NCBI GenBank assembly: GCA_024760545.1
Contig: CP060502.1
Location: 186,001-250,000 of the forward strand
Origin: Nitrospira sp.
GTDB taxonomy: Bacteria > Nitrospirota > Nitrospiria > Nitrospirales > Nitrospiraceae
Direction of reading: 5' to 3'
DNA length: 64,000 bases
Below the pieces are notes generated by a model that did no database searches, was not told where the DNA came from, and saw only the letters and a program-made list of their open reading frames with translations. A program made the translations under genes and the position numbers. Below are positions 39,592-58,189 of this stretch, piece by piece. Each line of letters opens with the position of its first letter. Position 1 is the first letter of the stretch.

Positions 39592-39596
39592 CCACT

Positions 39597-40352
39597 TTAG
39601 ATCGCGTCATATTGCCGGCGCATTTCATCTTCACGATGGGCCCGTCGCGAGCCAAGCAGGAAGGATATCCCGGGAAGAGTGAGACACACCATCGTACTGA
39701 TCACAATGAAAATGCCGGACTTAAACAGCAGATTGCGAAAGTCGACCAGGAAGTAGAACAGATGATCCCATTGTTCCACGGTGAAAATCCCATGAACCAC
39801 AAAATAGGTTGATGTCAGCACGTTGGAAATGATGTCCGGGGTAATCCGCCAATAGAGGAAATGAAACACCACGAAGATCAAGAGCATCTTGAGAATACTG
39901 CCAGTGACAAACCCGCCGTACAATTGCCAGATCGCATTGCGGCACACTTTGCCGAAATAGCACGCGCCTAAGTTAAACGCCAACAGAATATTGATGCCCA
40001 GGGTGTAGCTCAATCCAATGAGAAGAGAAAAGACCTGATCGGTCACCGTAGGATCATGCGTGCCGAAGATCGGAATCACGCGATCGATCACCCCCACACT
40101 GATCGGGGTGAAAATGATGTTGACCAACATGTCGGCCCAGGCCCCTTTCAACCCGACGTCGAAATACCCAAACTTCTCGTTCAGCAGGAGAAAATGGGGC
40201 GGGATCTCCATCCCCGTCCGTTCGACCGCCGACAGCTTCTCAATGTCAGAGATCGCCTCGAGGAGGCTTTTCGGTTTGGCCCGTGGGGTGGTGCTAGGGA
40301 ACAGCGGCCCTGGATTCCCTTTCCCTGCAATCCCTCCCCCTCCACCTTCCAT
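39597..40352 (-). CDS. Polytopic membrane protein of the transfer operon
   Basis: The 251-residue protein has a Gly-rich start, a soluble stretch of about 70 residues and then five or so hydrophobic helices (NIIFTPISVGVIDRVI, VFSLLIGLSYTLGINILLAF, LKMLLIFVVFHFLYW). GGGAG precedes the ATG. It lies between a small membrane protein gene and the PilZ gene. It may belong to the envelope part of the transfer system or to entry exclusion; no family match is known to me. Confidence 0.6.
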   Translation of the reverse strand: MEGGGGGIAGKGNPGPLFPSTTPRAKPKSLLEAISDIEKLSAVERTGMEIPPHFLLLNEKFGYFDVGLKGAWADMLVNIIFTPISVGVIDRVIPIFGTHDPTVTDQVFSLLIGLSYTLGINILLAFNLGACYFGKVCRNAIWQLYGGFVTGSILKMLLIFVVFHFLYWRITPDIISNVLTSTYFVVHGIFTVEQWDHLFYFLVDFRNLLFKSGIFIVISTMVCLTLPGISFLLGSRRAHREDEMRRQYDAI

Positions 40353-40355
40353 CGG

Positions 40356-40646
40356 TTATTCTCCCAATAGTCCAAACGTGCGAGCCACCGACCCAAAATA
40401 CGCAAAGCAGGTCGTAAAGACGAGGAACAACACCGCGAGTCCAAACTTCTGCTTGTAGGTCCCGTACCAGAACGAATAGAACAGACACAGCGCGGCGCCG
40501 ATCCGGGCCAAAGTGCCGTGAAACATCAAGTTAAAGAAGTTCATCCACATGTGGCGATACGCCTCTTCGCTCATGTAATTCAGCGGGTCCAAATACTCGA
40601 ACAAACTCGCTGAGACCGGCTGAATCAGGTGGAAACTGATATTCAT
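40356..40646 (-). CDS. Small membrane protein
   Basis: ATG 40646 (96 residues) is preferred because AAGGGATGGGG precedes it; an ATG at 40661 follows the previous stop too closely. One or two hydrophobic segments are present (RIGAALCLFYSFWYG and LAVLFLVFTTCFAYFG). The last bases abut the next membrane protein gene, so the two may form a complex. No family is assigned. Confidence 0.55.
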   Translation of the reverse strand: MNISFHLIQPVSASLFEYLDPLNYMSEEAYRHMWMNFFNLMFHGTLARIGAALCLFYSFWYGTYKQKFGLAVLFLVFTTCFAYFGSVARTFGLLGE

Positions 40647-40664
40647 GAGCAAGGGCCCCATCCC

Positions 40665-42041
40665 TTAGTGAACGATGTCCTCGATCAACTTAAAAAACCC
40701 TGTCTTCCGCTGTTCCAGGTTTGAGGGCGTCGTCGCAAAGGCCGATTCCAGAATGGGTACGGCATAAATCGGCAGTTCTTTCTTGGTCTTCAGGCGGAGC
40801 TTATACCGTCGTCCGGAAAACCCTTCTCCGATCGACTCTGCCAACACGCCAGCCATCCCTAACACGACCGCCAGTTGATTCAAGACTTGATCACGGTCGG
40901 ACATCCGCAATAAATGAATGTCCACGATTTTCTTCTGTCGCGCGAGTTCCTTCACGACACCGTACAACGCCCGCGTCTGACAGTACACGATCCCGCCACT
41001 CGCCACCGCCGCCCATTCCCCTTTCTTCGTACTGTCCGTCCCGCCCATGTTGATCAGCGGCTCAAGCAGGGCGAGAAACTCTGGCGTCGTAAACCAATCG
41101 TCCCAGCGTTTGATCTCCAGGGTCTTCGTCACATACGCCACTTCTTCTTCGCGAGCACGGCCGTCTGCCACTTTCAGTAACGTGGCAAACGCATCCTTCA
41201 CCAAGCGATGATGCCCTTGAATGGCCTCACAGACCTCGTCGATCCAGAAGATTTCAACCTTCTCGCAATATTCACGGATCTTCATGACGCTGATCGCCGG
41301 ATGATCGCGCATGGAGTAAATACCAGAGGCTCGAAAGACCGGAATCTTTCCCAGATCATGCCCAAGACATGACATCAGCATCTTGGGAATCAGCGGCTCG
41401 GGATCTTTGTAATGGCTCATCAATTCGGCCAGTCCGTGTTTCGTCACACGCTGCGTGTGATCCCGCAAATTCACTTGCGCGAGCGTATCCCGAATCGAAT
41501 AGAGATCCGCGACCTCTTCATCTTGCGTTTTGGCCTCCAACACCACCGACGGGCAATCTCCATATTCTTCCAACACGTCAATCATCGTCACCAACGGCCC
41601 CAGAACTTGCTGCCGCTCAAGGAGACCCTGATACGGCAGGATAAAGTCCCGCAATAAGATGGATGCGGCCGCGCGTTTCGTGATGGGCGTCCTTGGCGCT
41701 ACCACCGCTGGCACTGCACTCACCACAACCGGTTCCTTTCCAGGCGATGCCACCTCCTCACGTCCACGAAGGATCGCCGAGACCACGGTCGCCCCTGCCG
41801 GCGCCAGGGCTTCCTCCATCGTGACCGCCGGTGTCCCAATAGGACGCAAGCCACTCCCATGAGCTGATCGAAAGTCTTGATTATGCCGTAACCAGACGGG
41901 GGCCAAATCCTCTAACGCAATCACGAGTGGAGAAGGTTTGACGAGCGGCATCCATTTCACCGACGTCGCCATCTTTTGCGGCAGGCGGACCAGTAGGGAT
42001 TGCCGGATCCGATCGAGTACCGTATGCACCCAGCGGCTCAT
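40665..42041 (-). CDS. HD-domain protein of the transfer operon
   Basis: The 458-residue protein starts at ATG 42041, which overlaps the previous stop as ATGA. It has an HD phosphohydrolase core: SCLGHDLGKIPVFR, then MRDHPAISVMKI and IQGHHRLVKDAF, supplying the usual His/Asp metal ligands. The first 150 residues are disordered and Ala/Val/Pro-rich. The C-terminal part ends GRRYKLRLKTKKELPIYAVP, resembling the winged C-terminal end of TraI_2-type (MOBH) proteins. A relaxase role cannot be excluded, but length and motifs are not a clear match. Confidence 0.6.
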   Translation of the reverse strand: MSRWVHTVLDRIRQSLLVRLPQKMATSVKWMPLVKPSPLVIALEDLAPVWLRHNQDFRSAHGSGLRPIGTPAVTMEEALAPAGATVVSAILRGREEVASPGKEPVVVSAVPAVVAPRTPITKRAAASILLRDFILPYQGLLERQQVLGPLVTMIDVLEEYGDCPSVVLEAKTQDEEVADLYSIRDTLAQVNLRDHTQRVTKHGLAELMSHYKDPEPLIPKMLMSCLGHDLGKIPVFRASGIYSMRDHPAISVMKIREYCEKVEIFWIDEVCEAIQGHHRLVKDAFATLLKVADGRAREEEVAYVTKTLEIKRWDDWFTTPEFLALLEPLINMGGTDSTKKGEWAAVASGGIVYCQTRALYGVVKELARQKKIVDIHLLRMSDRDQVLNQLAVVLGMAGVLAESIGEGFSGRRYKLRLKTKKELPIYAVPILESAFATTPSNLEQRKTGFFKLIEDIVH

Positions 42042-42448
42042 CGCCACGCCTCCGGCAATTCCACGGCCTGGACTTGCTCCTGAGCCACCACCATTTTGGT
42101 CGGCCGGCCAAACAAGGCTGTGACAATAGTGGCTTTCCCATCGCTAATCTGATCTATCCGCCCCACGACATGCATCGCTCCGCACGGCACACGGACCGTT
42201 TCCCCAATCTCAGGGCACGACGGCATGACACGCTCCATTTGCAATCCTGCAACCTCCTCCATGCTCAGGGGCAGCACCTGCCGCACCCCGGCACAGGTCC
42301 GTATCATTGGGATCCATTCTTCTTGTCCGTGCCAGACCACATACTCATCCGCCATCCGCCGGATGTCCGAGGCGCCAGACTTCTCCAATAACTGAATCAA
42401 TCGGCGCACTCCCGATCGCACGACGTGACCGGCATACCAATGTCCCAT
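42038..42448 (-). CDS. NusG-like transcription elongation/antitermination factor
   Basis: The 136-residue protein starts at ATG 42448 with AGAGGA 6 bases upstream. The C-terminal KOW domain is clear: IGETVRVPCGAMHVVGRID and ATIVTALFGRPTKMVVAQEQ, matching the NusG strand pattern that ends FGRxTPVELDFxQV. The N-terminal part keeps HWYAGHVVRSGVRRLIQLLE and AGVRQVLPLSMEEVAGLQ of the NGN domain, but a central segment is missing. It therefore resembles specialised NusG paralogues such as RfaH, LoaP and ActX. It is coupled to the HD-protein gene and sits in the TraN operon with a NusA-like gene. Confidence 0.75.
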   Translation of the reverse strand: MGHWYAGHVVRSGVRRLIQLLEKSGASDIRRMADEYVVWHGQEEWIPMIRTCAGVRQVLPLSMEEVAGLQMERVMPSCPEIGETVRVPCGAMHVVGRIDQISDGKATIVTALFGRPTKMVVAQEQVQAVELPEAWR

Positions 42449-42461
42449 CGTCATTCCTCTC

Positions 42462-43001
42462 TCAACGGAGTTGGTCGAGGGCCTTCTTGACTCTCCAGGG
42501 ATATTGCGGATTGATCCCGTTATACCGTTCGATCGCACGCCAGTTATACCCATGACGCTCGATCGATTCCCTGAGGATTCGAGCCGACACTTTCAGGTTG
42601 GCACAGCCATCGAGGAGAGAGATCGGATGTATACGGTATCGCTCCATATTCCGCGTATTGACTTGGCCTAGCCCCACATCAAAGTTCACATTCTGTTTCC
42701 ACAGTCGCGTGACCAATGAAATAGCGTCGTTCATTGAACGGACTGTTTGGCGAATGCCCTTACCATGCTGGTTCACCGACACCGCCAGCGGGTCCCAATT
42801 CCCATTCTCGACCTGAACAATCGCTCGCAGTAGTGTCGAGGGAAGCTGATAGGCAGTGGCGGCTTCTTCAAGACAGGCATGAAATGGGTGTGAACCTCCC
42901 TCCACCTGCGTGCGCATAGTCTGCTTCTCTCCTTTTGCCACACCAAGCGACGGGATGCTCACCACAATCACAATGGTGCCAAACACCAGCCACCATCGCA
43001 T
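42462..43001 (-). CDS. Exported lytic transglycosylase
   Basis: The 179-residue protein starts at ATG 43001 with GGGAG 7 bases before. A signal peptide (WLVFGTIVIVVSIPSLGVA) precedes the SLT fold: RAIVQVENGNWDPLAVS with catalytic Glu65, FDVGLGQVNTRNMERY and AIERYNGI. VirB1/TrbN-type enzymes thin the cell wall for the transfer channel. It is near TraN and the NusG-like gene in one operon. Confidence 0.85.
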   Translation of the reverse strand: MRWWLVFGTIVIVVSIPSLGVAKGEKQTMRTQVEGGSHPFHACLEEAATAYQLPSTLLRAIVQVENGNWDPLAVSVNQHGKGIRQTVRSMNDAISLVTRLWKQNVNFDVGLGQVNTRNMERYRIHPISLLDGCANLKVSARILRESIERHGYNWRAIERYNGINPQYPWRVKKALDQLR

Positions 43002-43033
43002 CTCGCGCTCCCTCATGTTCCGAACTCTTTGGC

Positions 43034-43477
43034 CTAAGCCACAGCCGGAAGCATTACCTGTACCGGCAGTGGCTTCGCAGCTATCACCGGAAGACCTTCC
43101 ACGACACACCACCGTACCGCGGTCCCTCGAACGGTAATACTTTTCATCGACATCCCCTTAGCCGAAACTGTTTCCACTTGGAAATCGAGTCCCATGATAG
43201 CCGTTGGATTTCCATACTTCTCATATGCCATGTCACTGAGCTCACGGAGGGCAGGGAGAATCAGATAATTCTGCACCGGCTTATCGTAGCTCCGGACTCC
43301 GCCCCCGATAAAATCTCGCACCCGTGCCATGATGTCCCGCAACCAGCCCATCCCCTGCGTTTTATGAACAAAGACCAAGCCTAAGGGTTCACAGAGTTGC
43401 GGTTCATTGTTGATGCTATAAATTCCAGACTCCCCGAGGGTGAACATGGGTAAATAGGGTCGGTCCTCTGACAGCAT
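43034..43477 (-). CDS. YbjQ-family (DUF74) protein
   Basis: The 147-residue protein shows the YbjQ pattern: GLVFVHKTQGMGWLRDI, FIGGGVRSYDKPV, LRELSDMAYEKYGNPTAIMG and VRGTAVRW. The family forms pentamers of unknown function. AGAGGAGGG precedes the ATG. It stands between TraN and the lytic transglycosylase and may be structural, but nothing in the sequence says how. Confidence 0.72.
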   Translation of the reverse strand: MLSEDRPYLPMFTLGESGIYSINNEPQLCEPLGLVFVHKTQGMGWLRDIMARVRDFIGGGVRSYDKPVQNYLILPALRELSDMAYEKYGNPTAIMGLDFQVETVSAKGMSMKSITVRGTAVRWCVVEGLPVIAAKPLPVQVMLPAVA

Positions 43478-43494
43478 CGTGCCCTCCTCTAATC

Positions 43495-45402
43495 TCAGCA
43501 GCCTGGCGCGCCCGGATTCATAGCACAGGCTTTTTGACGCAACGATTCCGCGACGGCGGCTTGATCATAGTTTGTGGTGATCGACGAGAAGTATTCTGTG
43601 AAATCCATCGTCTGGAAGTTCAGCGCTGCGAATTCGTTCAACGTAAACCCATCACAATCGGGGGCATCGGGTGTCCCGAAATTCTGCCCCAACTGCGGTT
43701 TCCCTTGTTCCTGGATAATCCGTGCTAATTTTGAGCGGAAGGTACAATACACATCAGCCCGGCGCGCGCAAATCTGAGCAAACCCCACACTCCACCACTC
43801 AATACAATGGTTCCCGACCAAGACCACCTGCTGCGCCCGCTTATCACCAGCCAATGATATTTCCACATCGGTACACGTCCCCAACATTCGATCGGGATCG
43901 TCCGCACAACAATCGATAATCAAGGTTCCCAACGTGGAATACGAGCAGGCCTTCGGTGTACCTGTGAAAATCCGTAATTGATCCTTATCGAAATCATCCT
44001 GCACCGCTTGGACCATCGCCAACATTGTCGCGGCAATCTGGAAGTTCTGATTCGGCGGGGTGCTCGTATCCATGCAAAACGGGACATAACTCCCTGGTGC
44101 GCCACAGGAAGTGCATTGTTGCACCACAGTTTGTTGCGCACAGACGGTGCCACCTCCACACTGCACCGTCACCGAGTAGGTATCGCATCCGCCCGGGATG
44201 GGGGTCGTACAGGTGGAGGCCACATCAAAGCACCCCGCCTGCAACAACGGGGCACAGGTGTCCGTTGTCAAACTCGAAAAGCCCCATTGTTCTTCACGTA
44301 CCCATGCCCCACTCGCCGGCGCCACCGTTGGCGGGAGAAGCGTCTGGACGGTCCCGTCACTGAGCGTCACCGTTCGGGGGGCATCATCAAGAACCACGGA
44401 GGACATCCGTACCCACCCGGACGCACGAACTCCGGCGCACTGATCGTTGATCACGTCTTTCCGAATGACCCACGACTTTCTCCAACTCGTAGCTTGAACG
44501 CTCCCTGATTGCGCTCCTGACGCTCCACACACAATGGCGAGCACCTGGCCCGATGAAATCGAGAACGAGGTCCCACCACATTGCCCACCGATCGACACAT
44601 TGACACTGAAGTTGACGAGGACAATTTGCTCATCGGGATCAAGCGTGGGTGGCGTGAAAGAAAAGCTGGCAAAGGTCCGCCAACCGATCCCCCCGCAATT
44701 TTCACCAAATACTCCACCGGGACCAGTGCCCAACCACTGCATGACATAACTGTCCGGGGACGGATTCAGAACCCGGACATACATATAATGATCGACACAG
44801 AAACCAGCCGACCCGCCCGGGCCTCCCGTGATCGGGACTTCCCTGATGCTATTCGTCACCTGAATTTGACAGGTCAGTTGACCACTCCCTGGCCGATTAC
44901 AGGTTTGTGTCGACGGCGGGGCCTGTGTCCAGGACACGCAAATCGTCACATCCGTACAGGTGCTGACATTGGGATTCGGAGTGATCGAACTCGCAGTCGT
45001 ATTGGCCGTGGTCACAGGAGCGCTTGTCGTTAAATTCCACCCTCCAGCATCCACCCCCATTTGTTGCACTCGGGACGCATTCGGGTTCGACGCCGCGGCA
45101 TTTCCCGCCGCATTATTTAAGCCCGAGACATCACCTGTGTCGGAATAGTACCCAGAGGCAGATGAACCGGCGCAGGAGGCGTCCATACACCCCGAGGTCC
45201 CACCATACTGTGGCACCGCCCCCTGTCGGCCGCTCACCGTCCCTCGATCCAGCGCGCCGGTCGACTGGATATTCCCCATCGCACAGCGAGCTTTCTGCAG
45301 GGGATCGGTAATCCCGCTACAAGATACTTGAGCAAGAGCTATCCCTGTGACCGGTACGATTCCAGCCATAACGATCATCACCGTCAGAATGCGCCGCACC
45401 AT
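43495..45402 (-). CDS. traN: TraN-like mating-pair stabilisation protein
   Basis: The 635-residue exported protein starts at ATG 45402 with a signal peptide (LTVMIVMAGIVPVTGIALA). It is Cys-rich (about 35 Cys) with Ser/Thr-rich stretches in the middle. The C-terminal third has the TraN hallmark VYCTFRSKLARIIQEQGKPQ followed by DCDGFTLNEFAALNFQTMDF. TraN is an outer-membrane protein that stabilises the donor-recipient contact. It is separated by 8 kb from TraG, with different genes in between. Confidence 0.9.
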   Translation of the reverse strand: MVRRILTVMIVMAGIVPVTGIALAQVSCSGITDPLQKARCAMGNIQSTGALDRGTVSGRQGAVPQYGGTSGCMDASCAGSSASGYYSDTGDVSGLNNAAGNAAASNPNASRVQQMGVDAGGWNLTTSAPVTTANTTASSITPNPNVSTCTDVTICVSWTQAPPSTQTCNRPGSGQLTCQIQVTNSIREVPITGGPGGSAGFCVDHYMYVRVLNPSPDSYVMQWLGTGPGGVFGENCGGIGWRTFASFSFTPPTLDPDEQIVLVNFSVNVSIGGQCGGTSFSISSGQVLAIVCGASGAQSGSVQATSWRKSWVIRKDVINDQCAGVRASGWVRMSSVVLDDAPRTVTLSDGTVQTLLPPTVAPASGAWVREEQWGFSSLTTDTCAPLLQAGCFDVASTCTTPIPGGCDTYSVTVQCGGGTVCAQQTVVQQCTSCGAPGSYVPFCMDTSTPPNQNFQIAATMLAMVQAVQDDFDKDQLRIFTGTPKACSYSTLGTLIIDCCADDPDRMLGTCTDVEISLAGDKRAQQVVLVGNHCIEWWSVGFAQICARRADVYCTFRSKLARIIQEQGKPQLGQNFGTPDAPDCDGFTLNEFAALNFQTMDFTEYFSSITTNYDQAAVAESLRQKACAMNPGAPGC

Positions 45403-45439
45403 CACCACCGCCTCTCCGCCTGCTCGTATTCCCTTATGT

Positions 45440-46453
45440 CTAGCGTTTCTCTCCAACTTCCGGTGCCTGTGCCGCGGTTTGCACGGGCTTCTTCCAGCCA
45501 ATCTTTTCTTTGGCCCAATCCGTCCACGATTGCTTCGTAGCTGGTTGCACAGCCACCGTCGAAGTCGTCAACAGCGGCGATTGCCCACCATTATCCGTCA
45601 CCTGTGCTGATGTGGTCGGAGGGGTCGTCACCTCAGCAGGCTTAACCGCGACGGCTGCCGATGGAGCCCCATCCTTCGGACCAGTCACCGCACCATCTGT
45701 CCCAGTCACTGGAGCGGTGGGGACAACAGGAGCTTGGGAGACCGTTGCAGGGACAACCACAGAAGGATTCTCCCCCACACTCCCCGTAACCGGAGAACTA
45801 CCAGTAGTCACCGTGGCAGGAGTCACAGGAGATGGCTCCAATTTTGGACTGATGACTTTCGATGGCGGCACAACAGTCGAAGCCTGCCCGAGTTTCTGCT
45901 CCAATGCCCGCTCAACAGCCCCCTTCCCCTTCCCTTTTCCATCCGACTCAGAGCCAACTTCATGTTTGTTGGCGTCACTCGTCTCAGCCGGCCGAGAGAG
46001 TTTTGCAACCGCCTGCGCCTGCTTCCGTAACACTTCGACCTTAGCGCCCAACCCCGAGATCGTTCCATTCATCGCTTGTTGCTGTTCACTCATTGTGCGA
46101 AGCAACTCCAACGTTTCTTGAGACTGGCCCGTGAATTTGCCAAACTCCACCCGCTGAAGAGCCAATTCCTGACTCACGGTAGTCAGTCGAGCTTGCAGCG
46201 CCTTCACATCCACCAAGGTTTGTTGAACCGTCGACTCCAACCCGGTGACACGAAGTGAGTGCTGCGAGTAGGCTCGATGCAAGGCCTGCACATCAGACGA
46301 CAACCCGTCCCGTTCGATATCCTGTTCTGTCTTCACGTACCTCAAATGCTCGTTCTGCTCCACTTGTTGATCGTACGCGGATTTGGACACACACCCGCTC
46401 AACGCCCCAGCACACAGAACCCCCGTCATCATCATCTTCATAGCAACCTGCAT
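45440..46453 (-). CDS. Lipoprotein with coiled coil and Pro/Thr/Val-rich stalk
   Basis: The 337-residue protein starts at ATG 46453 after AAGGAGG. It has a lipobox LSGC (Cys21), a coiled coil of about 130 residues and then a long Pro/Thr/Val-rich low-complexity stalk. A short helix with WTDWAKEKIGWKKP lies near the end. It could span the periplasm, as TraB/TraP-like or TraK-associated proteins do. It precedes TraN by 38 bases. No family name is justified. Confidence 0.65.
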   Translation of the reverse strand: MQVAMKMMMTGVLCAGALSGCVSKSAYDQQVEQNEHLRYVKTEQDIERDGLSSDVQALHRAYSQHSLRVTGLESTVQQTLVDVKALQARLTTVSQELALQRVEFGKFTGQSQETLELLRTMSEQQQAMNGTISGLGAKVEVLRKQAQAVAKLSRPAETSDANKHEVGSESDGKGKGKGAVERALEQKLGQASTVVPPSKVISPKLEPSPVTPATVTTGSSPVTGSVGENPSVVVPATVSQAPVVPTAPVTGTDGAVTGPKDGAPSAAVAVKPAEVTTPPTTSAQVTDNGGQSPLLTTSTVAVQPATKQSWTDWAKEKIGWKKPVQTAAQAPEVGEKR

Positions 46454-46490
46454 AGAATCCTCCTTACAAAGTTCAGGGTGCTCCCGCCCC

Positions 46491-47240
46491 CTATGTAGAC
46501 GCTCCTCGATGCACAACTCTCGGCCGACCATTACTCGAACCTGTTGACCCGATCGTGACGTCATCCTTCGACGTTATTTCCAACTCAGCACCAATCTTTG
46601 CCACTCGAGGTTTTTGAGGCTCACGGAGTTCACGCGGCTCGTAATAATCCACGTCCACCGTCGCACACACTCCACGCACCACCCGATCTAACTCCCGTAC
46701 CAACGTGAGCGCTTCGGATAGACGCGAGTCGCTACGGAGCTGCTCCATGCTGATCGTGCGCAACACAACCAAGACGCGATCCATCCGAATGATCTGTTCA
46801 ACCACTGCACGGACTTCTTCCGTTTGAGGAACCACCACATGTGCACGTGGGTCAGCGACCATCCGTTTCCGTTCCACCAGTGATTCTCCTAACGCCGGTG
46901 TGAGCAACACGAGCTCGCCACCAGAAGCCCGGAGCCATTCGGCCGCTTGCTTACTCCACGTTTGAATAGGTTCCAGGAGTGCTAAGACTTCCGCTACAGT
47001 ACGAGTGACACCCAAATCTCGCCGTAACCGCGGGATCGCCTTATTGAGTGGGTACACCATGCGAATGAGAATGCGACCTTCAAATGATCGTGGCAGTACA
47101 ATGAGACTGCCATACTGCTGCAGGAGCTCCCGGTTGAGCGCGATCCGCTCCTCAGGCGTTTTCTTTTTGCGTTTCGCGTTGGCGGCAGCCCCATTGTCGT
47201 GTTTCGGTGAACCGGAACTCTGTGGTGACTGATTATTCAT
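46491..47240 (-). CDS. Hypothetical protein
   Basis: The 249-residue protein starts at ATG 47240 after TAGGAGG. It is soluble and charged: a basic N-terminal tail (NAKRKKKTPEERIALNREL), a globular part with SLIVLPRSFEGRILIRMVYP, and ELVLLTPALGESLVERKR. It follows the NusA-like gene by 7 bases. It might be a partner of that protein, but nothing beyond linkage supports this. Confidence 0.6.
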   Translation of the reverse strand: MNNQSPQSSGSPKHDNGAAANAKRKKKTPEERIALNRELLQQYGSLIVLPRSFEGRILIRMVYPLNKAIPRLRRDLGVTRTVAEVLALLEPIQTWSKQAAEWLRASGGELVLLTPALGESLVERKRMVADPRAHVVVPQTEEVRAVVEQIIRMDRVLVVLRTISMEQLRSDSRLSEALTLVRELDRVVRGVCATVDVDYYEPRELREPQKPRVAKIGAELEITSKDDVTIGSTGSSNGRPRVVHRGAST

Positions 47241-47247
47241 AGTCCTC

Positions 47248-47877
47248 CTATAAGCTGGCCAACCGAATCGAAAACCCGGTAACTCGGCCTGCGACGGCCA
47301 CATTCAAGCCAGCCTTCCCAAGAAATCGTGGCATCACTGCTGCCGGGACACGGACCTCAGCCTCATGGGCACGACGGTCGACCGTGATTCCTTTCACCTC
47401 ACCAAGGGGAGCCGGCAACAACGCTTGTTTGATAAATTCTTCGGGGGATGCACTGTAGAGCACCAAACACGGACGTAACCGCGAATAGGATCCAAACTCT
47501 CGCAAATACGGCAGGCATAACCTGATGGGGTCATCTCCCGTCGGTGATCCCACAGCAATCTTGACGAACTCCGCATGCTGAACTGTCCCCACCGCCTTCA
47601 CATCCACACGCCCCTCCGCGATCACCGGGGCAAACAACAGTTCAGCGACGCGGCGAATAAAATGGCCCGATCGTTGGGAGACAATCGGATACGGTCCCTC
47701 CACGGATTTGATACAGGCATAAAACCGGTCTCCAACCCGGTAGGGACCATCCGCACAGACCCGAGGCAGCACCGCCATCCGGTCCGTGCCTCCTATCAAC
47801 GTCAAATAGCCAGGCTTGTCAGGATTTGCTTTGACCACCTGGCCCAACACAAAATGACCGACCTTATCGAACGCCAT
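47248..47877 (-). CDS. NusA-like protein (S1-KH-KH, no N- or C-terminal extensions)
   Basis: The 209-residue protein follows NusA along its RNA-binding part. The S1 domain includes FVLGQVVKANPDKPGYLTL, YRVGDRFYACIKSV and IVSQRSGHFI. KH1 includes GRVDVKAVG, FVKIAVGSPTGDDPIRLC and SASPEEFIKQALLPA. KH2 ends EVRVPAAVMPRFLGKAGLNV and AGRVTGFSIRL. KH2 keeps a GxxG loop (GKAG); the KH1 GxxG is lost. The N-terminal RNA polymerase-binding domain and the acidic repeats are absent. With a NusG-like gene 5 kb away in the same operon, it suggests element-encoded antitermination. Confidence 0.75.
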   Translation of the reverse strand: MAFDKVGHFVLGQVVKANPDKPGYLTLIGGTDRMAVLPRVCADGPYRVGDRFYACIKSVEGPYPIVSQRSGHFIRRVAELLFAPVIAEGRVDVKAVGTVQHAEFVKIAVGSPTGDDPIRLCLPYLREFGSYSRLRPCLVLYSASPEEFIKQALLPAPLGEVKGITVDRRAHEAEVRVPAAVMPRFLGKAGLNVAVAGRVTGFSIRLASL

Positions 47878-47909
47878 ACTTAGTATTACGCTCGCGAAGT
47901 TGAAGGCCC

Positions 47910-48269
47910 CTATCGGCGCTTCCGATCAAGCTCCTCTTGAAACATCTTTCGGCACAGACTCAACGGTAGGAAAACCGTATCGACATGACGGGCGGGAACC
48001 ACCACTTTCACCAAATATCGCCCTTCGTACTCCGCCGTCACCGTACTGACTTGATACCCTTTACCCCGCAGTGCATTGACGAACTCTTCCGGACCGGACC
48101 ACTTCGGGAGGTCGCTGACCTCACCCACTATTGAAAACACCTCCCCACACCCCCCCATCCCGGAGGCCACCATCCACCGCTCCGGTCCCAACGGTGACTG
48201 TGCCCACACCGGAATCGCCCAGATCCCCCACAAGATCGTGATCCCTACCATCAGTGTCCGTATCAGCAT
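47910..48269 (-). CDS. Exported hypothetical protein
   Basis: The 119-residue protein starts at ATG 48269 (GGGATGGTGGGG upstream) with a signal peptide (LMVGITILWGIWAIPVWAQ). Mature part: one Cys in GMGGCGEVFSIVG and another in LSLCRKMFQ, plus a strand-rich middle with YQVSTVTAEYEGRYLVKVV. It heads the leftward operon with TraN. A CGTAATA motif lies 60 bases upstream on its strand. Confidence 0.6.
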   Translation of the reverse strand: MLIRTLMVGITILWGIWAIPVWAQSPLGPERWMVASGMGGCGEVFSIVGEVSDLPKWSGPEEFVNALRGKGYQVSTVTAEYEGRYLVKVVVPARHVDTVFLPLSLCRKMFQEELDRKRR

Positions 48270-48328
48270 TGCCCCACCATCCCTTGGATTCCCTTGCGAC
48301 CGCCCTGCTTCTCTGGCATACACAGTCT

Positions 48329-48350
48329 TATTACGATCTCTCGCGTAATA
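48329..48350. promoter_or_regulatory. Divergent CGTAATA motifs between the two operons
   Basis: TATTACG (48329-48335) and CGTAATA (48344-48350) are inverted copies facing the leftward TraN operon and the rightward lipoprotein genes. Comparable copies occur before other genes of the element (7999, 9687, 13021, 21671, 47884, 58145). Confidence 0.45.
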
Positions 48351-48358
48351 GAGCTCTG

Positions 48359-49591
48359 ATGCCACACAGACTGCGCTACAAGTGGTCTCTCCTCGCCTGG
48401 CTCACCCTCCTCACCGGATGCGCCAATTCGTACTTTGTGCCTATGGAGCTTGCCCCTTCGCACATCGAACGCACCCCGGCCGGGACAGAACCAGCAAGCC
48501 GGCCGAGTCTGCACGTGATCACCCACTCTGATGGATTGGGATGGCAAGTCTCAGCGACCCAAGAATGGATCGACCGAGAGCACGTCACGGAACAGGAATA
48601 TTGGAAGGGCTGGGTCTATGCACCAGCAAAGAATTCAGCAGCCCAGGTCGGGTACACCGCTGGCACCGTCCTTACCTGCCCGGGCAGCATTCTCGCTCAC
48701 GTCTTTATCAGGATGATTCGGGTGGTCGGACTATTGGATCAAGCGGAACCCACGTGGCACTACATTAAAGGGCTCTGTGTCGCGCCACTGCTAGGCTTGG
48801 ATCCTACGACCCCACACTGGCAGACCCAACCAGGACCCACACATGACGTCACACGCGTCTCCCAACGAGTCATTCGTCCACTCACCGACGGACGTCTCCA
48901 ACTCCGCTGGATGCATAAGCAGTTCGATCCGGTCGGAACAGAATATGTGATCACCAAGATGTCCCCAACACTCGATATCCGGTTACGCGAGGTCGCGGCC
49001 GTCCTTCTCCGGACCCATCAGCCCGATACCCTCCGCCAAGGCCAATTGGAGATCACCCTCCATACCACTGACGGACTCACCATCACGACCCCCATTTCAA
49101 TCAGCCCCTCCACGCTAAAAACGGCCCTTGAATCTGATCTGATCCGCAGACCTGCTTCAGACTGGCCAACATCGCTTCGGATTCGCCTGGAGACCCAGGA
49201 CCCTGCGCTAACATCACTGACCCAAACCCTCCTCACTGAACTGGGTTTACCCAGCGTTACCCGCGGAACCACTGCCACCTCGCTATATGCAGCTCAAAAC
49301 CAGGAGGTTTCACCGCTGTTCCAAGAAGGGACCTCTAATTCCATCGGCCATTGGACCGGAGCCACTGTACTCCTCTCCCTTACGAGCACGCGCATGACCG
49401 AAACCACACACTTACTTGTGGCCACCGCCAGCTCGATCGAAACAGGACTTGTCCTTGGACAATTCACCCTCGAAGGACGAGCTGGCCTCACTCCTGACGT
49501 CGCCAGTACCTTGCGTGCACAACTCACACAGTTGCTCACTGGTGACGGCCTCGCAGTCCGTCGTGGTCTCATGATCGAGGAACGCCGATGA
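48359..49591 (+). CDS. Lipoprotein, first of a tandem pair
   Basis: The 410-residue protein starts at ATG 48359 with a lipobox LLTGC. The N-terminal domain contains GWQVSATQEWIDREHVTEQE and LTCPGSILAHVFIRMIR and aligns with the next protein, so the two are paralogues. The C-terminal half may be a fibre of beta strands ending in a helix of about 25 residues. Rightward orientation, opposite to the transfer genes, suggests a separate unit. The family is unknown. Confidence 0.6.
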   Translation: MPHRLRYKWSLLAWLTLLTGCANSYFVPMELAPSHIERTPAGTEPASRPSLHVITHSDGLGWQVSATQEWIDREHVTEQEYWKGWVYAPAKNSAAQVGYTAGTVLTCPGSILAHVFIRMIRVVGLLDQAEPTWHYIKGLCVAPLLGLDPTTPHWQTQPGPTHDVTRVSQRVIRPLTDGRLQLRWMHKQFDPVGTEYVITKMSPTLDIRLREVAAVLLRTHQPDTLRQGQLEITLHTTDGLTITTPISISPSTLKTALESDLIRRPASDWPTSLRIRLETQDPALTSLTQTLLTELGLPSVTRGTTATSLYAAQNQEVSPLFQEGTSNSIGHWTGATVLLSLTSTRMTETTHLLVATASSIETGLVLGQFTLEGRAGLTPDVASTLRAQLTQLLTGDGLAVRRGLMIEERR

Positions 49592-50589
49592 AGATGCTGG
49601 TTGCCGCCATCCTTATTTTCTTATCTGGCTGTCAAACACTCCTGACCTCGCCTACTGGAACACCCTCAACGTCTCGCCTCCCGATCGAGCGACTTCCCCA
49701 CAGCTCCCCGCACGTGCAGCTGACACCCAATGCCACCAAAGACCATTGGACCATACAAGTCACGCAACAATTCGATGACGTCGAGCAAGTTCACACGGTC
49801 CAGCAACAGGCAGCACGTCGCTACCTTTTCTGGCCCCTGGCCCCTCTGAACGGCCTGACACAATGTCCGGCCGGTTTAATCGCATCCGTCCTCTCTTCTC
49901 GAGAGAGCGCCAACATCCTGCGCGAGGTCGGCTGTATGCGGCTCCTGGCTATGGAACCGTTACGCAATACCGTTCCCACCCACATGATTGACCATCGACA
50001 ACAAGTACACCGATTGTCCGAATCCCCTGTCGCCGGCGCCGAGATCACCTTCCGTTCACATGACACAGAGGACGTGATCCACACCTTGACCGGCATCGAT
50101 GGACGAGCCACCGTTCGAGGCCTCGTGCAACGTACGCTCGCCGGCGTCCTCACCATCTCAGTGGCCAACCAGATCATCGAAACACAAGAGATCACCCTCA
50201 ACCCCAGTCACCCTAACTCACGCATACGAGCACTACAGCTCCCGCCCAACCCCGTATTCCAAGTGGACGAAGCACACACCTCGCCCTACCTGGAGCACAT
50301 GATCCGCATGCAGCTCCTTCAACTCGGGTTCTCAGTCCTGCCAAACACTCGATCGCACAACGCAATTGTGGATGAACAGAAGATCCAACTAACAGGAAGA
50401 ATCGAGGATGGGTCAACGGTGAAGACCGCTCGTCTCGCACCACCAACAATGCTCATTCAAGGAAGAAAAGAAGAAGAGTCCCCGTACGAAATCACAGTCC
50501 TCTTCGTAAAGAACGGCGAGCAGCACATCATCAGAATTGATGATCTCGGCGAATTAGCCCTTCTCCTTCAACGCCAACACTATAAGTAA
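49588..50589 (+). CDS. Lipoprotein, second of a tandem pair
   Basis: The 333-residue protein overlaps the previous gene as ATGA and has a lipobox LSGC. HWTIQVTQQFDDVEQVHTVQ and LTQCPAGLIASVL match the first lipoprotein in position. The middle has an Ig-like or carboxypeptidase-regulatory-like segment (GAEITFRSHDTEDVIHTLTG, GRATVRGLVQ). The C terminus shows a strand-rich DDLGELALLLQRQ end. It probably forms an outer-membrane pair. Confidence 0.6.
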   Translation: MKMLVAAILIFLSGCQTLLTSPTGTPSTSRLPIERLPHSSPHVQLTPNATKDHWTIQVTQQFDDVEQVHTVQQQAARRYLFWPLAPLNGLTQCPAGLIASVLSSRESANILREVGCMRLLAMEPLRNTVPTHMIDHRQQVHRLSESPVAGAEITFRSHDTEDVIHTLTGIDGRATVRGLVQRTLAGVLTISVANQIIETQEITLNPSHPNSRIRALQLPPNPVFQVDEAHTSPYLEHMIRMQLLQLGFSVLPNTRSHNAIVDEQKIQLTGRIEDGSTVKTARLAPPTMLIQGRKEEESPYEITVLFVKNGEQHIIRIDDLGELALLLQRQHYK

Positions 50590-50665
50590 GAGCCATCCTC
50601 ACACCGTGAACCGCAAACGGACATTGTGTTGACATTCGGCACACATTGTCATAGGGTTATCAGAC

Positions 50666-50953
50666 ATGGAATCATGGGAATATGCCTTCGACCCGGACAA
50701 GAATGCCTGGCTCATACAAGAACGAGGGATCAGCTTCGAGCAGATCATCGCCCTCATTGAAAGCGGCCATCTCGTTCAGGTGCTGGAACACCACGATCGC
50801 GAGCGCTATCCTCACCAGTTGCTCTATGAAGTCGATGTGAATGGGTACATATACATCGTCCCAGTCGTGAGAGAACACCGAACGCTTTTCTTAAAGACGA
50901 TCTATCCCAGCCGAAAGGCCACCAGACATCACGAGAAAGGACGCGCCACATGA
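50666..50953 (+). CDS. BrnT-like (DUF497) toxin
   Basis: The 95-residue protein has the DUF497/BrnT pattern: YAFDPDKNAWLIQERGISFEQ, LEHHDRERYPHQLL and RTLFLKTIYPSRKA. BrnT is an RNase-fold (RelE-like) translation inhibitor. The end overlaps the next start as ATGA. The typical order, toxin first and ribbon-helix-helix antitoxin second, holds. The pair may stabilise the element. Confidence 0.78.
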   Translation: MESWEYAFDPDKNAWLIQERGISFEQIIALIESGHLVQVLEHHDRERYPHQLLYEVDVNGYIYIVPVVREHRTLFLKTIYPSRKATRHHEKGRAT

Positions 50954-51231
50954 AAAAGAAACTTCTGCTGGATAAGGACGAGGATCAGGTAGTCGCGGAT
51001 TACGAGCGCGGCGCCTTCAGGCCGGTGAAGAATCAAGCTATAGCAAGAAAAGAAGCCATGGACGCCGCCCGACGCTACATGCGCAAAGACGCCCGAATCA
51101 ATATCCGTTTATCGACCGCTGATCTTGAAATGCTGAAGCGGCGCGCCGCCGAGGAAGGCCTGCCCTATCAAAGCCTGATCGCCAGTATCCTGCATAAATA
51201 CGTCAGCCGCTCTGTGCCACAGACCAACTAA
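50950..51231 (+). CDS. CopG/BrnA-like ribbon-helix-helix antitoxin
   Basis: The 93-residue protein has INIRLSTADLEMLKRRAAEE and LPYQSLIASILHKYVSR, a ribbon-helix-helix DNA-binding unit at its C terminus. The N-terminal part (KLLLDKDEDQVVADYERG) would bind the toxin. It is translationally coupled to the BrnT-like gene and likely represses the pair. Confidence 0.82.
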   Translation: MKKKLLLDKDEDQVVADYERGAFRPVKNQAIARKEAMDAARRYMRKDARINIRLSTADLEMLKRRAAEEGLPYQSLIASILHKYVSRSVPQTN

Positions 51232-51647
51232 CGGGCAAGCGGAGTAGCTTCAAGTACACAATCGCCATAAGCTTCCCTGTACATTCCATTGCCGATATAC
51301 GTATTCGGAGCCGATGCTGGACCAGGGACCGCTCCCAAAGCAGAAGTTGTCCGATAATTCACAATGCCAATCCCTTTCCTATTTTTATCTCGACATATTT
51401 CATCTAGCTCAACACCTAATGGCTGCTTACCCTCGTCACGTAGAAGATTGTCTGCAGAACCCCAAGCGCCTATTGTGAGAACTTCAGATCGAACAACCTG
51501 ATAGCCAGGAATCTGAGCCCCCACATAACGTCCCAACCATTTTCCCTTAGCATTTCCTTCTGTCTCAGCCGCGGCCAGAGACCCAGACCAAGAGAGACCA
51601 ACAAAGAAGCAGACAATTACAACCATCACCCGAGTCATCGATTTCAT
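51228..51647 (-). CDS. Exported hypothetical protein
   Basis: The 139-residue protein has a signal peptide (VMVVIVCFFVGLSWSGSLAAA). The mature part is strand-rich: GYQVVRSEVLTIGAWG and IGIVNYRTTSALGAV. Its stop overlaps the end of the antitoxin gene on the other strand. The sequence is more AT-rich than the transfer genes. No family is recognised. Confidence 0.55.
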   Translation of the reverse strand: MKSMTRVMVVIVCFFVGLSWSGSLAAAETEGNAKGKWLGRYVGAQIPGYQVVRSEVLTIGAWGSADNLLRDEGKQPLGVELDEICRDKNRKGIGIVNYRTTSALGAVPGPASAPNTYIGNGMYREAYGDCVLEATPLAR

Positions 51648-51671
51648 ATTTCTGCTAACCTACTTTACTGG

Positions 51672-51836
51672 TCAATCACGAGGATTCTGACTGTGATCAG
51701 GATCAAGAAACTCTCGCTGATAGTCACTCGCCCAGCCTAGTCGCTCGAAATCGTCGTTATCTTGCCCCGGCAGCTGACCGAGAATATGCCATGCCCCACG
51801 GATATACTGCCGGATCGTGGAAAGCCAGTTCAGCAT
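51672..51836 (-). CDS. Small hypothetical protein after TraG
   Basis: A 54-residue frame from ATG 51836 to TGA 51672 has GGAGG 8 bases upstream, located inside the end of traG. It is acidic with Trp residues (MLNWLSTIRQYIRGAWHI, FERLGWASDYQREFLDP). The coupling and good ribosome site make it a likely real gene. The function is unknown. Confidence 0.5.
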   Translation of the reverse strand: MLNWLSTIRQYIRGAWHILGQLPGQDNDDFERLGWASDYQREFLDPDHSQNPRD

Positions 51837-51842
51837 GGTCAC

Positions 51843-54800
51843 CTACCTCCGTGAAGTGCCGCTAGATATCCCTCGCTGACGCTTAAACTCTTCTCGCATA
51901 CTTGTTAACTTATCATAGATCCCTCGCTGTTCAGGATCAACAGGGGCCTGAGGATCATAGGGACGGGGGCTACCACCAGAGATCTTTTCCGCAGATCGCT
52001 GAAAACGACCAAACCGCGTAGCATCCATAGTCACCTGCCAACCAAGTCTCACCCCTTCTGCAGCTTGAGCTGCTTCCTTCCAATGACCTGGTTTATCCGG
52101 GTCAAATGCATCTGACAGCCCCAAGGCTTCCAATGACTGCTGTCCTTTCGAAACCAACGTCGAAGATTCATCAATTTTTGTATTGAGCATATAGGCGCGA
52201 CTATCACGACGCTCAATTCCTTTATGCCCCTCACTCCAAATCCGCTCACCTGCCTGATTCAGGACATCACGAACGACAAACCCACCAGCCGATTCTGCTT
52301 CACGGTGACTCACTTCACGCTCATTGGTTAACCTAAACTGACCTGGGTTTTTGGGGTCTGCCTCTACATCCCCAACCCTAAACACCGGCCCCCGCTCACC
52401 TTCGTGATACCCGATCTGTTTTCCCGTTGCGGTGTTTGTGAAATGCATACTGACGATATCCCCTTCTGGAGACATCTCGATCCCCCCTGCGACACGGGCT
52501 GTGCCCTGTCCGTCCAACCCAGGAACAAGAAACGATCCTGAAAAACTGTTCCGATTCGAGGTCTCGCTCGTCAACATCCGCCAGTCGCCTGTGCCGTCTC
52601 CGCCTCGACCAAGAGTCGACGAATGGAGATTGCCAGCGTGGTCGGCAACCCGTTTATCAACCACACCAGAAACAGCACCTGAAACGACATGCCGACTCTG
52701 GTCTTCCATAAATCTCTGTGTGCTTTTCTGCCCATCAGCTCCTTGCACATTTTGCACGGTCTCGATTGCATTAAACTTCTGTGACCCTGCTCCAGCAGAA
52801 ATCACGTACCCAGTTCCCTCTCCCCCCTTTAGCTCAGATGACCCATCAGATCCAAGTCCATCCAGAGTCAACTTTCCACTCCCCACAGGCAATTCACTCA
52901 ACGGCCGCGGTTCCATCGAGACCGCCAATGAGCGTTCACCAAACGCACCTCTATTAACGGCCGTCGTGGTATCCGGTGTCCGAATCAAACGATCAAACAG
53001 CGACCCTGACTTCTCCGGATCCACCGTCGCATGCCCATGCGACGTAAAATGGGTTTGCCCAATCGACTTTAAATTCCCATGTCCATCGTCTAGCCATGCC
53101 GGGGCAGTCAAAGTTTCATCATAGGTGTAATCCGACGACCCTGGATTGTTTCTCAACGTCAACTGCCGGCCACCATCGCCAATGACGCGTTGTGTCCCCC
53201 CATGATCCAAATCAGAAAAGAAGACCTGACCGTCTTTGGATTCAACATGGCCTCTGGATACGACATTATTCCCATCAATCACCGGACCGTTATAACTCCA
53301 GTTCTGACTATCCCGCCCCCCATACTTCTGAAGATGTCCGCCAACCAACTGCAGATCGTCGACCTGCATCATCATCCCTGAGGAATGCGCTTCTAACCGT
53401 GCGGACCAATCCTCAGTGGGAGCATGCATCTCCCAGCGCCCTTGCTGTGGGTTGTACGACATCTCTCCACGAAGCTCACCACGGTAGCCATCTTTATCCA
53501 CCGTGAACGACGATTGAAATGGTTGCCCACTCCCATCGGCGGCCACCCCACCCTGACCATGCACCACACCCGCTAACGTCTCATGAGAGCCATCAGCATG
53601 AAACACCTCAACGTGTGAAGCCCCTGAATACGATCGTGTCAGTTCTCCAGCATTCCCCTCTGTGGTCGTCGTCATCAGCCCATGCTCGGAACTATGTTGC
53701 GTGTGTAAATTCGTCCCATCACTACTCGTCACGGTCATCCCTTTGGAGAAATCCGGCATGCCTTGGTCATTCAGTCCGACATTGCTCAACGCATACCGAT
53801 GTTCACCGTGCTCCGTTGAATGCGCGGTCATCACCCCACCACTCCACGGAGAATCGGCTGAGGGGCGTGAAAAACTGGCTGTCACATCCGCCATGACAGT
53901 CTCGGTTCGCCCATTGACGCTCATCGGCACGGCCGCAGTCCCGACTGCCGTAAATAACTGTTGATGATCCCCTTGCGTGCGAAGTTCTTTGGTGAACCCC
54001 CCTTCCGACCAGGTATCGCTGAGCGACTTCTGTTGGTTCATGCGCTGATTCCAGGTCTCGCGGTAGTCATGTTGGACATTATTGCCGTCACGGCCCATAT
54101 ACGACACGTCGACATGATCCCCCGACACCTCAAATTGAGCCGAGTGCATCTGACCATCAGCACCCTGAACCGGTTGACGCCACACCCCTCCCATATACTC
54201 ATCACCGTGCTTGCTCCATGAGCCCTCGGGACCATGGTACTGCTTCGTCATGCCATCCCGGCTCACCGTCATCGAGCTCCCGTCACCATACCCAACACTC
54301 GTATTGCCCCCTTGATGATGCATCATCGTGCCAGTACCACCACGAAAGTAACTGGACCCAGCATGGAACCCACCCGACGCATCTTGCACCATCGGGGAGT
54401 GCTCCTCCTTCAAATGCTGTCCGGGCTCCACGTACTTCCCATCCCCATGGGCATACTGCGACGCCTCATGCGCCGCAGCCGATTGCGCCCCTGCTGTAGC
54501 CCCTGTCACCGCCGAAGCCAACGAGCTCATCCCATACGCCGCGACCGTCGCCAAGGTCGGAACCGCCCAGATCAGCCGCCCTGAAAACGTATTCAGGCCA
54601 ATCAAGACATTGGAATAGTCGTCAAACGAATTGAATGAAATCAGCCCCACGGTAATCTGCGCCATCTGTTGAACCCCATACTGATACACCACAAAGTTCA
54701 AGATCGCGTACATGGGGATCCACATAAAGAGCCATCCATACCCCAATACCAATCCGCGGATGGTCGCAAACATGGCAGGACTCATGGCTAACGCCAACAT

Positions 54801-55826
54801 GAGCGGCGTCAAAAGATACACCACACTCTCCGAAACGGTCCGCATCAAGGGAACAAACCGAGCCGATATCAACGAATCCGCATACGCTTGATTCTTAATA
54901 TCGGCTGTAATGGATTTCGTCATTTGCACAACCGCACTGGCGGTATCGTTCCCCTCTTCAGCAGATTGCCGATCCGCATCCTTCCACCGCTCGCGTAACA
55001 ACACATTATTGATGAGTGCGCGAGGACCCTGCCCGCTCCCCATGATATTCGTGATAAAGGCCTGCACCGGCGTTAATTCTCCATCGGGCATATCCAGGAC
55101 GCCCAACACAGCACGAAATTGCCGCATCGTCTCATCGTAATCGGGCTCACCATTCGCCAGCCCATTGACAATCCAGCGATCGTACATCTCTGGACAAGTG
55201 CTCTGCGCAAACTGATTCCCCAGTCGAATCTCGACAATCGGCAAAGCAGCGTTCGTGACCGCAATTGCCGTGACCATATTCGGAGAATTCAAAATAGGTT
55301 CACGTTGCAACCGATTCAGCTCAATCTCCCGGAACACACAATCCTTCAGATAATTGGTCACATTCGCTTGCAGATCCCCAGGGATGATTTCCTGCATCAT
55401 CGTCTTCTGCATGTCGAAAAACCCTCGACCAATGGACGAATTGACCACCCGATACTCCGCCGGCAACCCAAACGTCGTCTCAACACCCACCATCGTTTGA
55501 TAACTGATTTCGGAGGTCATGTAGGCCGGAAACGCCACCGCCAACGGGACATTCCCAATGACCTGATCTGGTACTCCCGGATTCACTAAATCATGCACGA
55601 GGACGGTCATTCTGATATTGAGCGTCACCGCCAGAATAACGATCGCACCAAAGACCCATTGCCACTGAATCCGGCCACGGCCGAGGAATGACACAATGCC
55701 CCCAAACACTAAACAGACCATCCCTAAGCGCAGCAAACTTTCATACCCCCCACCCATTAAAAAGACGATGGCACGGATCACATCCGACAACACATCGCCA
55801 CTTCCAAATGTGTTAATTGGCCACAT
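51843..55826 (-). CDS. traG: TraG-like mating-pair stabilisation/pilus assembly protein
   Basis: The 1327-residue protein has an N-terminal membrane region of about 450 residues (VIRAIVFLMGGGYESLLRLG, VYLLTPLMLALAMSPAMFA, LIWAVPTLATVAAYGMSSLA) as in F TraG. A very long, Gly/His/Ser-rich periplasmic tail full of beta-strand repeats follows, for example HGEHRYALSNVGLNDQGMP. The tail is far larger than that of F TraG (938 residues). It comes after TraH, the F order. Family role: pilus assembly, mating-pair stabilisation and entry exclusion recognition. Confidence 0.87.
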   Translation of the reverse strand: MWPINTFGSGDVLSDVIRAIVFLMGGGYESLLRLGMVCLVFGGIVSFLGRGRIQWQWVFGAIVILAVTLNIRMTVLVHDLVNPGVPDQVIGNVPLAVAFPAYMTSEISYQTMVGVETTFGLPAEYRVVNSSIGRGFFDMQKTMMQEIIPGDLQANVTNYLKDCVFREIELNRLQREPILNSPNMVTAIAVTNAALPIVEIRLGNQFAQSTCPEMYDRWIVNGLANGEPDYDETMRQFRAVLGVLDMPDGELTPVQAFITNIMGSGQGPRALINNVLLRERWKDADRQSAEEGNDTASAVVQMTKSITADIKNQAYADSLISARFVPLMRTVSESVVYLLTPLMLALAMSPAMFATIRGLVLGYGWLFMWIPMYAILNFVVYQYGVQQMAQITVGLISFNSFDDYSNVLIGLNTFSGRLIWAVPTLATVAAYGMSSLASAVTGATAGAQSAAAHEASQYAHGDGKYVEPGQHLKEEHSPMVQDASGGFHAGSSYFRGGTGTMMHHQGGNTSVGYGDGSSMTVSRDGMTKQYHGPEGSWSKHGDEYMGGVWRQPVQGADGQMHSAQFEVSGDHVDVSYMGRDGNNVQHDYRETWNQRMNQQKSLSDTWSEGGFTKELRTQGDHQQLFTAVGTAAVPMSVNGRTETVMADVTASFSRPSADSPWSGGVMTAHSTEHGEHRYALSNVGLNDQGMPDFSKGMTVTSSDGTNLHTQHSSEHGLMTTTTEGNAGELTRSYSGASHVEVFHADGSHETLAGVVHGQGGVAADGSGQPFQSSFTVDKDGYRGELRGEMSYNPQQGRWEMHAPTEDWSARLEAHSSGMMMQVDDLQLVGGHLQKYGGRDSQNWSYNGPVIDGNNVVSRGHVESKDGQVFFSDLDHGGTQRVIGDGGRQLTLRNNPGSSDYTYDETLTAPAWLDDGHGNLKSIGQTHFTSHGHATVDPEKSGSLFDRLIRTPDTTTAVNRGAFGERSLAVSMEPRPLSELPVGSGKLTLDGLGSDGSSELKGGEGTGYVISAGAGSQKFNAIETVQNVQGADGQKSTQRFMEDQSRHVVSGAVSGVVDKRVADHAGNLHSSTLGRGGDGTGDWRMLTSETSNRNSFSGSFLVPGLDGQGTARVAGGIEMSPEGDIVSMHFTNTATGKQIGYHEGERGPVFRVGDVEADPKNPGQFRLTNEREVSHREAESAGGFVVRDVLNQAGERIWSEGHKGIERRDSRAYMLNTKIDESSTLVSKGQQSLEALGLSDAFDPDKPGHWKEAAQAAEGVRLGWQVTMDATRFGRFQRSAEKISGGSPRPYDPQAPVDPEQRGIYDKLTSMREEFKRQRGISSGTSRR

Positions 55827-55844
55827 CGTAGGGGTGCTCCACGC

Positions 55845-57212: not shown

Positions 57213-57223
57213 ACGCCTCCGGA

Positions 57224-58123: not shown

Positions 58124-58189
58124 ACACCCCCTTCTATCTATTCTTATTACGGTCTGGACCTTAGAGTCGGTGCGGCCCGCCTCAACACC

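Follow-up and report, generated by a model that had tools for sequence, protein, structure and literature searches.

A NusA-like S1-KH1-KH2 protein encoded with AcaB-like and NusG-like genes in F-type transfer regions of Nitrospira

The transfer region of an F-type element in Nitrospira encodes a 209-aa protein (47248–47877, minus strand, ATG start), which sequence searches confirm as a homologue of NusA from S1 through KH2 and which lacks the N-terminal domain. Its gene lies in one putative operon with genes for an AcaB-like protein and a predicted NusG paralogue. Tentatively, and with close to even confidence, we read this protein from its sequence as a NusA-derived, RNA-binding elongation-factor paralogue that, together with the NusG paralogue of the element, could let the host polymerase transcribe the transfer operons without polarity. 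The analysed stretch of DNA, hereafter the window, comprises 64 kb (bases 186001–250000) of a 273,451-base contig that looks plasmid-like; the genome consists of this contig and a second one of 4.54 Mb.

Pfam matches in the region included TraC, TrbC_Ftype, TraU, TraF, TraH, TraG_N and TraN. Genes of the F-type T4SS (TraG_N, TraH, TraF, TraU, TrbC_Ftype, an S26 peptidase and TraC) occupy 51843–63912 on the minus strand, and a first leftward block of about 20 kb begins at 71252 of the extended contig and ends at 51228. Rightward genes at 48.3–51.2 kb separate it from operon 2, likewise leftward and about 9 kb long (48.4 to 39.2 kb, with gaps), which carries the NusA-like gene near its front; all of these limits are ORF maps and not transcripts. 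The transfer operons of 9–12 kb in the original prediction are partly off, as the upstream block is about 20 kb long by ORF map. Between the two leftward blocks, beside two lipoprotein-like genes, lie two overlapping small genes (50666–51231, plus strand), which by eye we take to resemble a BrnT/BrnA-type toxin-antitoxin pair. Beyond the window, an imperfect 84-bp inverted repeat (71790–71873 of the extended contig) is present in the divergent region that precedes the first leftward block.

All genes of operon 2 are on the minus strand. The first one in the window (47910–48365, true start probably near 48269) encodes a small protein that is putatively secreted, as judged by eye, and gave nothing over the Pfam cut-off. 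It is followed by the NusA-like gene and, 4 bp after the stop codon of the latter, by the AcaB-like gene (46491–47243), for which a longer ORF start at 47303 would overlap the NusA-like gene. Further downstream are a putative lipoprotein gene (45440–46564; assigned by eye, with relatives and no Pfam match over the cut-off), F-type traN (43495–45501; Pfam F_T4SS_TraN, 1.9e-41), and genes for a YbjQ-like protein (43034–43477; Pfam, 3.1e-11), an SLT transglycosylase (42462–43112; Pfam, 3.6e-9), the NusG-like protein with a short NGN and a KOW domain (42038–42454), and an HD-domain protein directly downstream of it (40665–42047; Pfam HD, 1.1e-5, and synteny). Three small genes come next (39202–40661; ORFs with gaps).

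The relationship to NusA was supported by several searches. With phmmer against the PDB, 13 distinct NusA sequences were matched at E 2.6e-9 to 1.7e-5, followed by one unrelated sequence at E 0.39. A profile of ten members (A1) matched NusA at 7.9e-14 and archaeal NusA (2cxc) at 7.1e-4, with ribosomal uS3 next at 0.021. The NCBIfam NusA model TIGR01953 matched the protein at E 1.6e-12 with 47.1 bits, short of the whole-protein cut-off (253.4), and a Pfam search of the protein returned no family at E<=10. The predicted resemblance to NusA from S1 through KH2 was thus borne out by all three NusA matches, and the profile search did not place the protein in an unrelated S1/KH family. In a tree of NusA stretches (19 short and 22 full; 41 rows left after duplicates and rows >240 aa had been removed from 55), the short proteins formed one side of a 100/100 branch; the branches are long and the root is the midpoint.

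As for the proposed domain losses, the majority of housekeeping NusA frames from the phylum have a homologous stretch that starts at residue 128–133 and ends near 347 (in a few longer frames it starts at 148–254), whereas it starts at residue 1–29 in the short frames and covers nearly the whole protein. Accordingly, the polymerase-binding N-terminal domain is absent, as predicted. The GxxG loop was likewise rightly described as lost from KH1 and kept in KH2: the GIKG loop of host KH1 is deleted in 13 of 13 short rows aligned with host NusA, and 18 of 19 distinct short proteins have no GxxG in residues 81–150, the sole GVDG (L064) preceding the KH1 loop position in the alignment, while GxxG of KH2 is kept in 17 of 19 distinct relatives and reads GxxA in the other two. 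The claimed lack of an acidic C terminus is weak, because the NusA frame of the host itself has only 383 aa. All 19 distinct short stretches are basic (pI 9.06–9.80); the same stretch of host NusA has a pI of 9.14, so that the charge is not distinctive against it, and two other housekeeping stretches have values of 5.9 and 6.9.

A NusG-like gene had been proposed about 5 kb downstream in the same direction, and this gene is indeed found on the same strand 4.8 kb downstream. As a single sequence its product had no match in Pfam and reached 12 of the 135.7 bits of the NCBIfam NusG equivalog, so it is not the housekeeping NusG. A profile of eight members matches NusG at E 2.6e-9, mostly via KOW. 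The AlphaFold model (pLDDT 87.9, pTM 0.50) consists of an NGN-like domain and a KOW-like barrel, and Foldseek matched it to 20 PDB chains at E<=0.001, from NusG or Spt5 entries. In VIA-align, RfaH was the top match (8phk: Z 9.7, 128 aligned, rmsd 7.1; 2oug: Z 9.2, 70 aligned, rmsd 2.1); domain by domain, unrelated tudor and ACT-like domains scored almost as high as the NusG rows (Z about 8–8.6). From profile and model we regard the protein as a genuine NusG paralogue, in which a predicted NGN domain is followed by KOW. In E. coli NusG, the FGR motif of KOW makes contact with Rho and S10. This motif of the host housekeeping NusG is kept in six of eight NusG-like members, in an alignment that also contained two unrelated frames. 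The host genome encodes Rho, a single NusA (as judged by Pfam KH_5) and three proteins with a NusG domain. Two of these three, chromosomal proteins other than the housekeeping NusG (L146 and L147, at G000:C1:3516492 and 3659653), are without the FGR motif and are possibly specialised paralogues of the host.

The AcaB-like gene, overlooked in the original prediction, is the tightest partner of the NusA-like gene. Its product had no significant match in Pfam (ten members) and none in NCBIfam (four members). For the predicted model (pLDDT 77.4), AcaB was the best fold match: Foldseek returned AcaB 6n8a with a probability of 1.00 and E 0.034, and VIA-align gave Z 10.7 (146 aligned, rmsd 3.9, 9% identity) with the next row at 6.8. 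The model thus points to an AcaB fold; the match is good and not proof, because helical folds below Z of about 13 may have only their general arrangement in common. The idea of a split NusA, in which the downstream gene would supply the missing N-terminal domain, was rejected, as the model best matches AcaB; no NusA chain was among the fold matches listed by Foldseek and VIA-align, an absence that is itself not proof.

Among 175 Nitrospiraceae genomes, separate profile searches found the NusA-like gene (E<=1e-22) in 17 and the NusG-like gene (E<=1e-6) in 17, and the two lists were identical; seven of these genomes had supplied rows to each profile and ten had not, several of the latter being near-copies (e.g., G307 of G250). 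Across the phylum (395 genomes), a cut-off of 1e-22 gave 34 genomes with a match to the NusA-like profile, which by frame length comprised 17 short proteins and 17 housekeeping NusA. The AcaB-like profile, to which ten of its 17 matched genomes had supplied rows, matched 17 of the 395, the same set as the short NusA-like proteins: the gene directly follows the NusA-like gene in 17 of 17 genomes, one copy (G376) being cut by a contig end. The NusG-like gene is clear in 14 of these 17 and was represented by a weak short match in two (G176 and G052), where frames of 140 and 137 aa lie about 37 and 32 kb from the NusA-like gene on the same contig, that of G052 on the opposite strand. That these frames belong to the same element as the NusA-like gene is not proven; at such distances the NusA-like and NusG-like genes are separable. 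In the G448 element no NusG-like gene was detected, though the NusA-like, AcaB-like and flanking operon genes are in place. This element also carries, between its AcaB-like and lipoprotein genes (L131:3149-4471), a gene that by eye resembles those of TnpB/IS605-type transposon proteins.

The order NusA-like, AcaB-like, (lipoprotein, YbjQ, TraN, SLT), NusG-like and HD is kept in eight elements with some losses and moves, e.g., TraN lies elsewhere in G143. In eight of eight elements, the ORF map places the NusA-like gene first or second behind a divergent gene; the NusG-like gene does not stand at the front. The 20 kb upstream of the NusA-like gene in G242 yielded no match to an F-type tra gene. 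TraC was found in 16 of the 175 Nitrospiraceae genomes, 14 of them with the NusA-like/NusG-like pair. The other two (G319 and G384) gave no HD-gene match and carry TraC on contigs only 7.8 and 5.1 kb long; they are therefore uninformative on elements without the pair. Conversely, G316, G358 and G383 possess the pair without a TraC match, and the NusA-like and NusG-like genes of G376 are on different short contigs. The expectation that both genes co-occur in related elements was upheld by the identical sets of 17 of 175 genomes; the three more distant elements, two with a short NusG-like frame and one with none detectable, did not refute it. Since the other genes of operon 2 are co-inherited too, this co-occurrence does not single out the pair and is what any backbone gene would show.

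Beyond the surveyed genomes, a pattern search of a contig collection with four Nitrospiraceae proteins yielded nine loci, seven labelled Nitrospira, one Nitrosospira and one Mesorhizobium; eight of the nine were already among the surveyed genomes. A related element is located on the N. moscoviensis chromosome (NZ_CP011801.1). The loci from a Mesorhizobium sp. MAG (L059, JAHBYX010000018.1) and an uncultured Nitrosospira (L057, CAADGK010000091.1) bear a NusA-like gene of the Nitrospira type, and their labels likely reflect mis-binning or mislabelling, or else transfer. In PLSDB (tblastn, 72,556 plasmids, at least 5000 of them with TraU), the NusG-like and AcaB-like queries had no match and no short NusA-like relative was recognised. 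Two NusA-like queries returned 5 and 21 records: the five were all full-length NusA frames of 357–421 aa, and the best 20 of the 21 had a query coverage of 67% or less, as judged from the match listing, so that both groups were set aside. Viral contigs gave no NusA-like match, and the phage matches, two unannotated contigs, were discarded as full-length NusA frames of 390 and 420 aa.

We also looked for sequence elements at which such proteins could act. No convincing shared leader or nut/ops-like site appeared in a self-BLAST of 87 kb of the contig, and no convincing common leader element was seen among 22 upstream stretches taken from 21 genomes. A short-word search of seven leaders against their own 40 kb, and of both operon leaders of the window contig, likewise found nothing convincing, and the leader hairpin of the G260/G316 group had no repeat in the 40 kb searched. 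A GTAATA(C) box lies a few bases before several start codons, including 47883–47889 (minus strand) in the window, and upstream of other NusA-like genes. As a leader element it was rejected: GTAATAC occurs four times in the window against 2.04 expected (15 of 100 shuffles reach four), and GTAATA is present across all stretches and was taken as promoter-like; such a position would be compatible with a -10 box in leaderless transcripts. Intrinsic terminator-like sites at 39000–58000 are at chance level (17 on both strands versus 16.4 expected, sd 3.6). As the host has Rho, Rho polarity on the transfer operons is at least possible.

In the favoured scheme, the NGN domain of the NusG-like protein would dock on the polymerase clamp in competition with host NusG, and its KOW domain, with FGR mostly kept, could engage S10 or Rho. 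The basic S1-KH1-KH2 protein would bind nascent RNA via S1 and KH2 near the exit channel, and would do so without the N-terminal polymerase-binding domain of host NusA. As the weakest step, the AcaB-like protein might tether or load the NusA-like protein at tra promoters. The operons served would be those of about 20 and 9 kb delimited by ORF map. Against antitermination stands that a NusA-like protein without the N-terminal domain is without the known polymerase anchor. In an extended version, anchoring would occur via the NusG-like or AcaB-like protein, and the N-terminally truncated NusA, the minimal NusG and the AcaB-like tether would form a three-part private Nus apparatus which makes the host polymerase element-specific and termination-resistant; this version is conceivable and, on the present sequences, rather doubtful.

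Other roles have to be weighed against elongation. The NusA-like and AcaB-like proteins could instead form a post-transcriptional or promoter regulator, i.e., an RNA- or DNA-binding repressor or activator, with the NusG-like protein acting alone in the manner of ActX or RfaH. The strict adjacency of their genes, which holds even where the NusG-like gene is distant or undetected, would agree with such a role, as would the reported function of AcaB as a transcriptional regulator of IncC conjugation (PMC9927553) and the loss of the known RNAP contact with the N-terminal domain. We consider it unlikely all the same, since S1-KH-KH of NusA is an elongation-factor module and the NusG-like gene, counting the weak short matches, also occurs in 16 of the 17 genomes.

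The retention of RNA-binding parts without the N-terminal domain would likewise suit a NusA antagonist, which would compete for nascent RNA or for NusG or ribosome surfaces and thereby relieve NusA-enhanced pausing or termination on transcripts of the element. The NusG paralogue LoaP is reported to antiterminate by antagonising NusA (PMC12691694), but unless tethered, an antagonist free to diffuse would act on the entire chromosome, and from the sequence we judge this role improbable. That the gene is a vestigial or hitch-hiking NusA fragment without function in transfer appears very improbable. The loss of both the KH1 GxxG and the N-terminal domain would fit decay; against it speak nine relatives at 25–71% identity, mostly in the same gene order, the well-supported branch of the short proteins, and Nei-Gojobori dN/dS ratios of 0.06–0.23 in nine estimable of 11 pairs (each gene was compared in 11 pairs, and the ratio is undefined where a pair was identical or saturated). 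For the NusG-like gene the ratios were 0.10–0.46 (10 of 11 pairs estimable), and for the AcaB-like gene 0.09–0.30, except for one pair at 0.68 with a dS of 0.006.

Compared with bacterial NusA (TIGR01953), the element protein has the same order of S1, KH1 and KH2 and mostly keeps GxxG in KH2, but it is without the N-terminal domain, its KH1 GxxG is deleted, its gene belongs to a transfer operon, and it scores 47 against 253 bits. Archaeal NusA (KH-only; PDB 2cxc) is likewise without the N-terminal domain and also without S1, which the element protein keeps; it is described as binding RNA and may be complemented by S1 of Rpo7 (PMC8116511). A full-length nusA is annotated on the 375-kb plasmid pY5S7-1 of Paenibacillus amylolyticus (L157, NZ_CP145893.1), likewise outside the main chromosome. 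It differs in that the gene encodes 357 aa, about 140 of them forming an N-terminal part, and lies on a plasmid typed as non-mobilizable, and the 3.6 kb read around it contain no transfer operon, nor rimP or infB beside nusA. In the open-licence PMC literature, as judged by titles and the beginnings of abstracts, we found no NusA paralogue on a mobile element.

Element-encoded NusG paralogues such as ActX, in contrast, are already known. Published precedents are RfaH, which acts on the F operon, and the plasmid-borne ActX (PMC8955417; PMC7819879; PMC13250579); the latter is reported as a conjugation-linked paralogue of NusG (PMC7819879; PMC13250579; PMC12691694). Common to ActX, RfaH and the NusG-like protein is that they are paralogues of NusG located in a transfer operon or acting on one. 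RfaH tops the structural matches of the NusG-like protein, which differs in its shortened NGN and a KOW that mostly keeps FGR. A NusA paralogue alongside ActX or RfaH is not described in the accessible text of their reports (PMC8955417; PMC7819879; PMC13250579; PMC12691694). AcaB of the IncC plasmid shares with the AcaB-like protein its fold match and its location on a conjugative element, while the identity is 9%, no significant Pfam family was matched in ten members, and no NusA gene beside acaB is mentioned in the accessible part of its report (PMC9927553). The conAn system of pLS20 and relatives is an antitermination system also found at the start of a conjugation operon, but it is Gram-positive and consists of protein plus RNA (PMC8955417).

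According to the part of a 2022 account available to us, chromosomally encoded RfaH is the only known processive antitermination system on Gram-negative conjugation operons (PMC8955417). If the favoured reading is true, an element equipped with paralogues of NusA as well as NusG would represent a self-contained alternative to chromosomal RfaH. The protein would moreover provide a natural NusA without the N-terminal domain for dissecting which parts of NusA drive pausing and which antitermination. It would also mean that conjugative DNA can capture and shorten NusA, a protein mostly regarded as a housekeeping factor.
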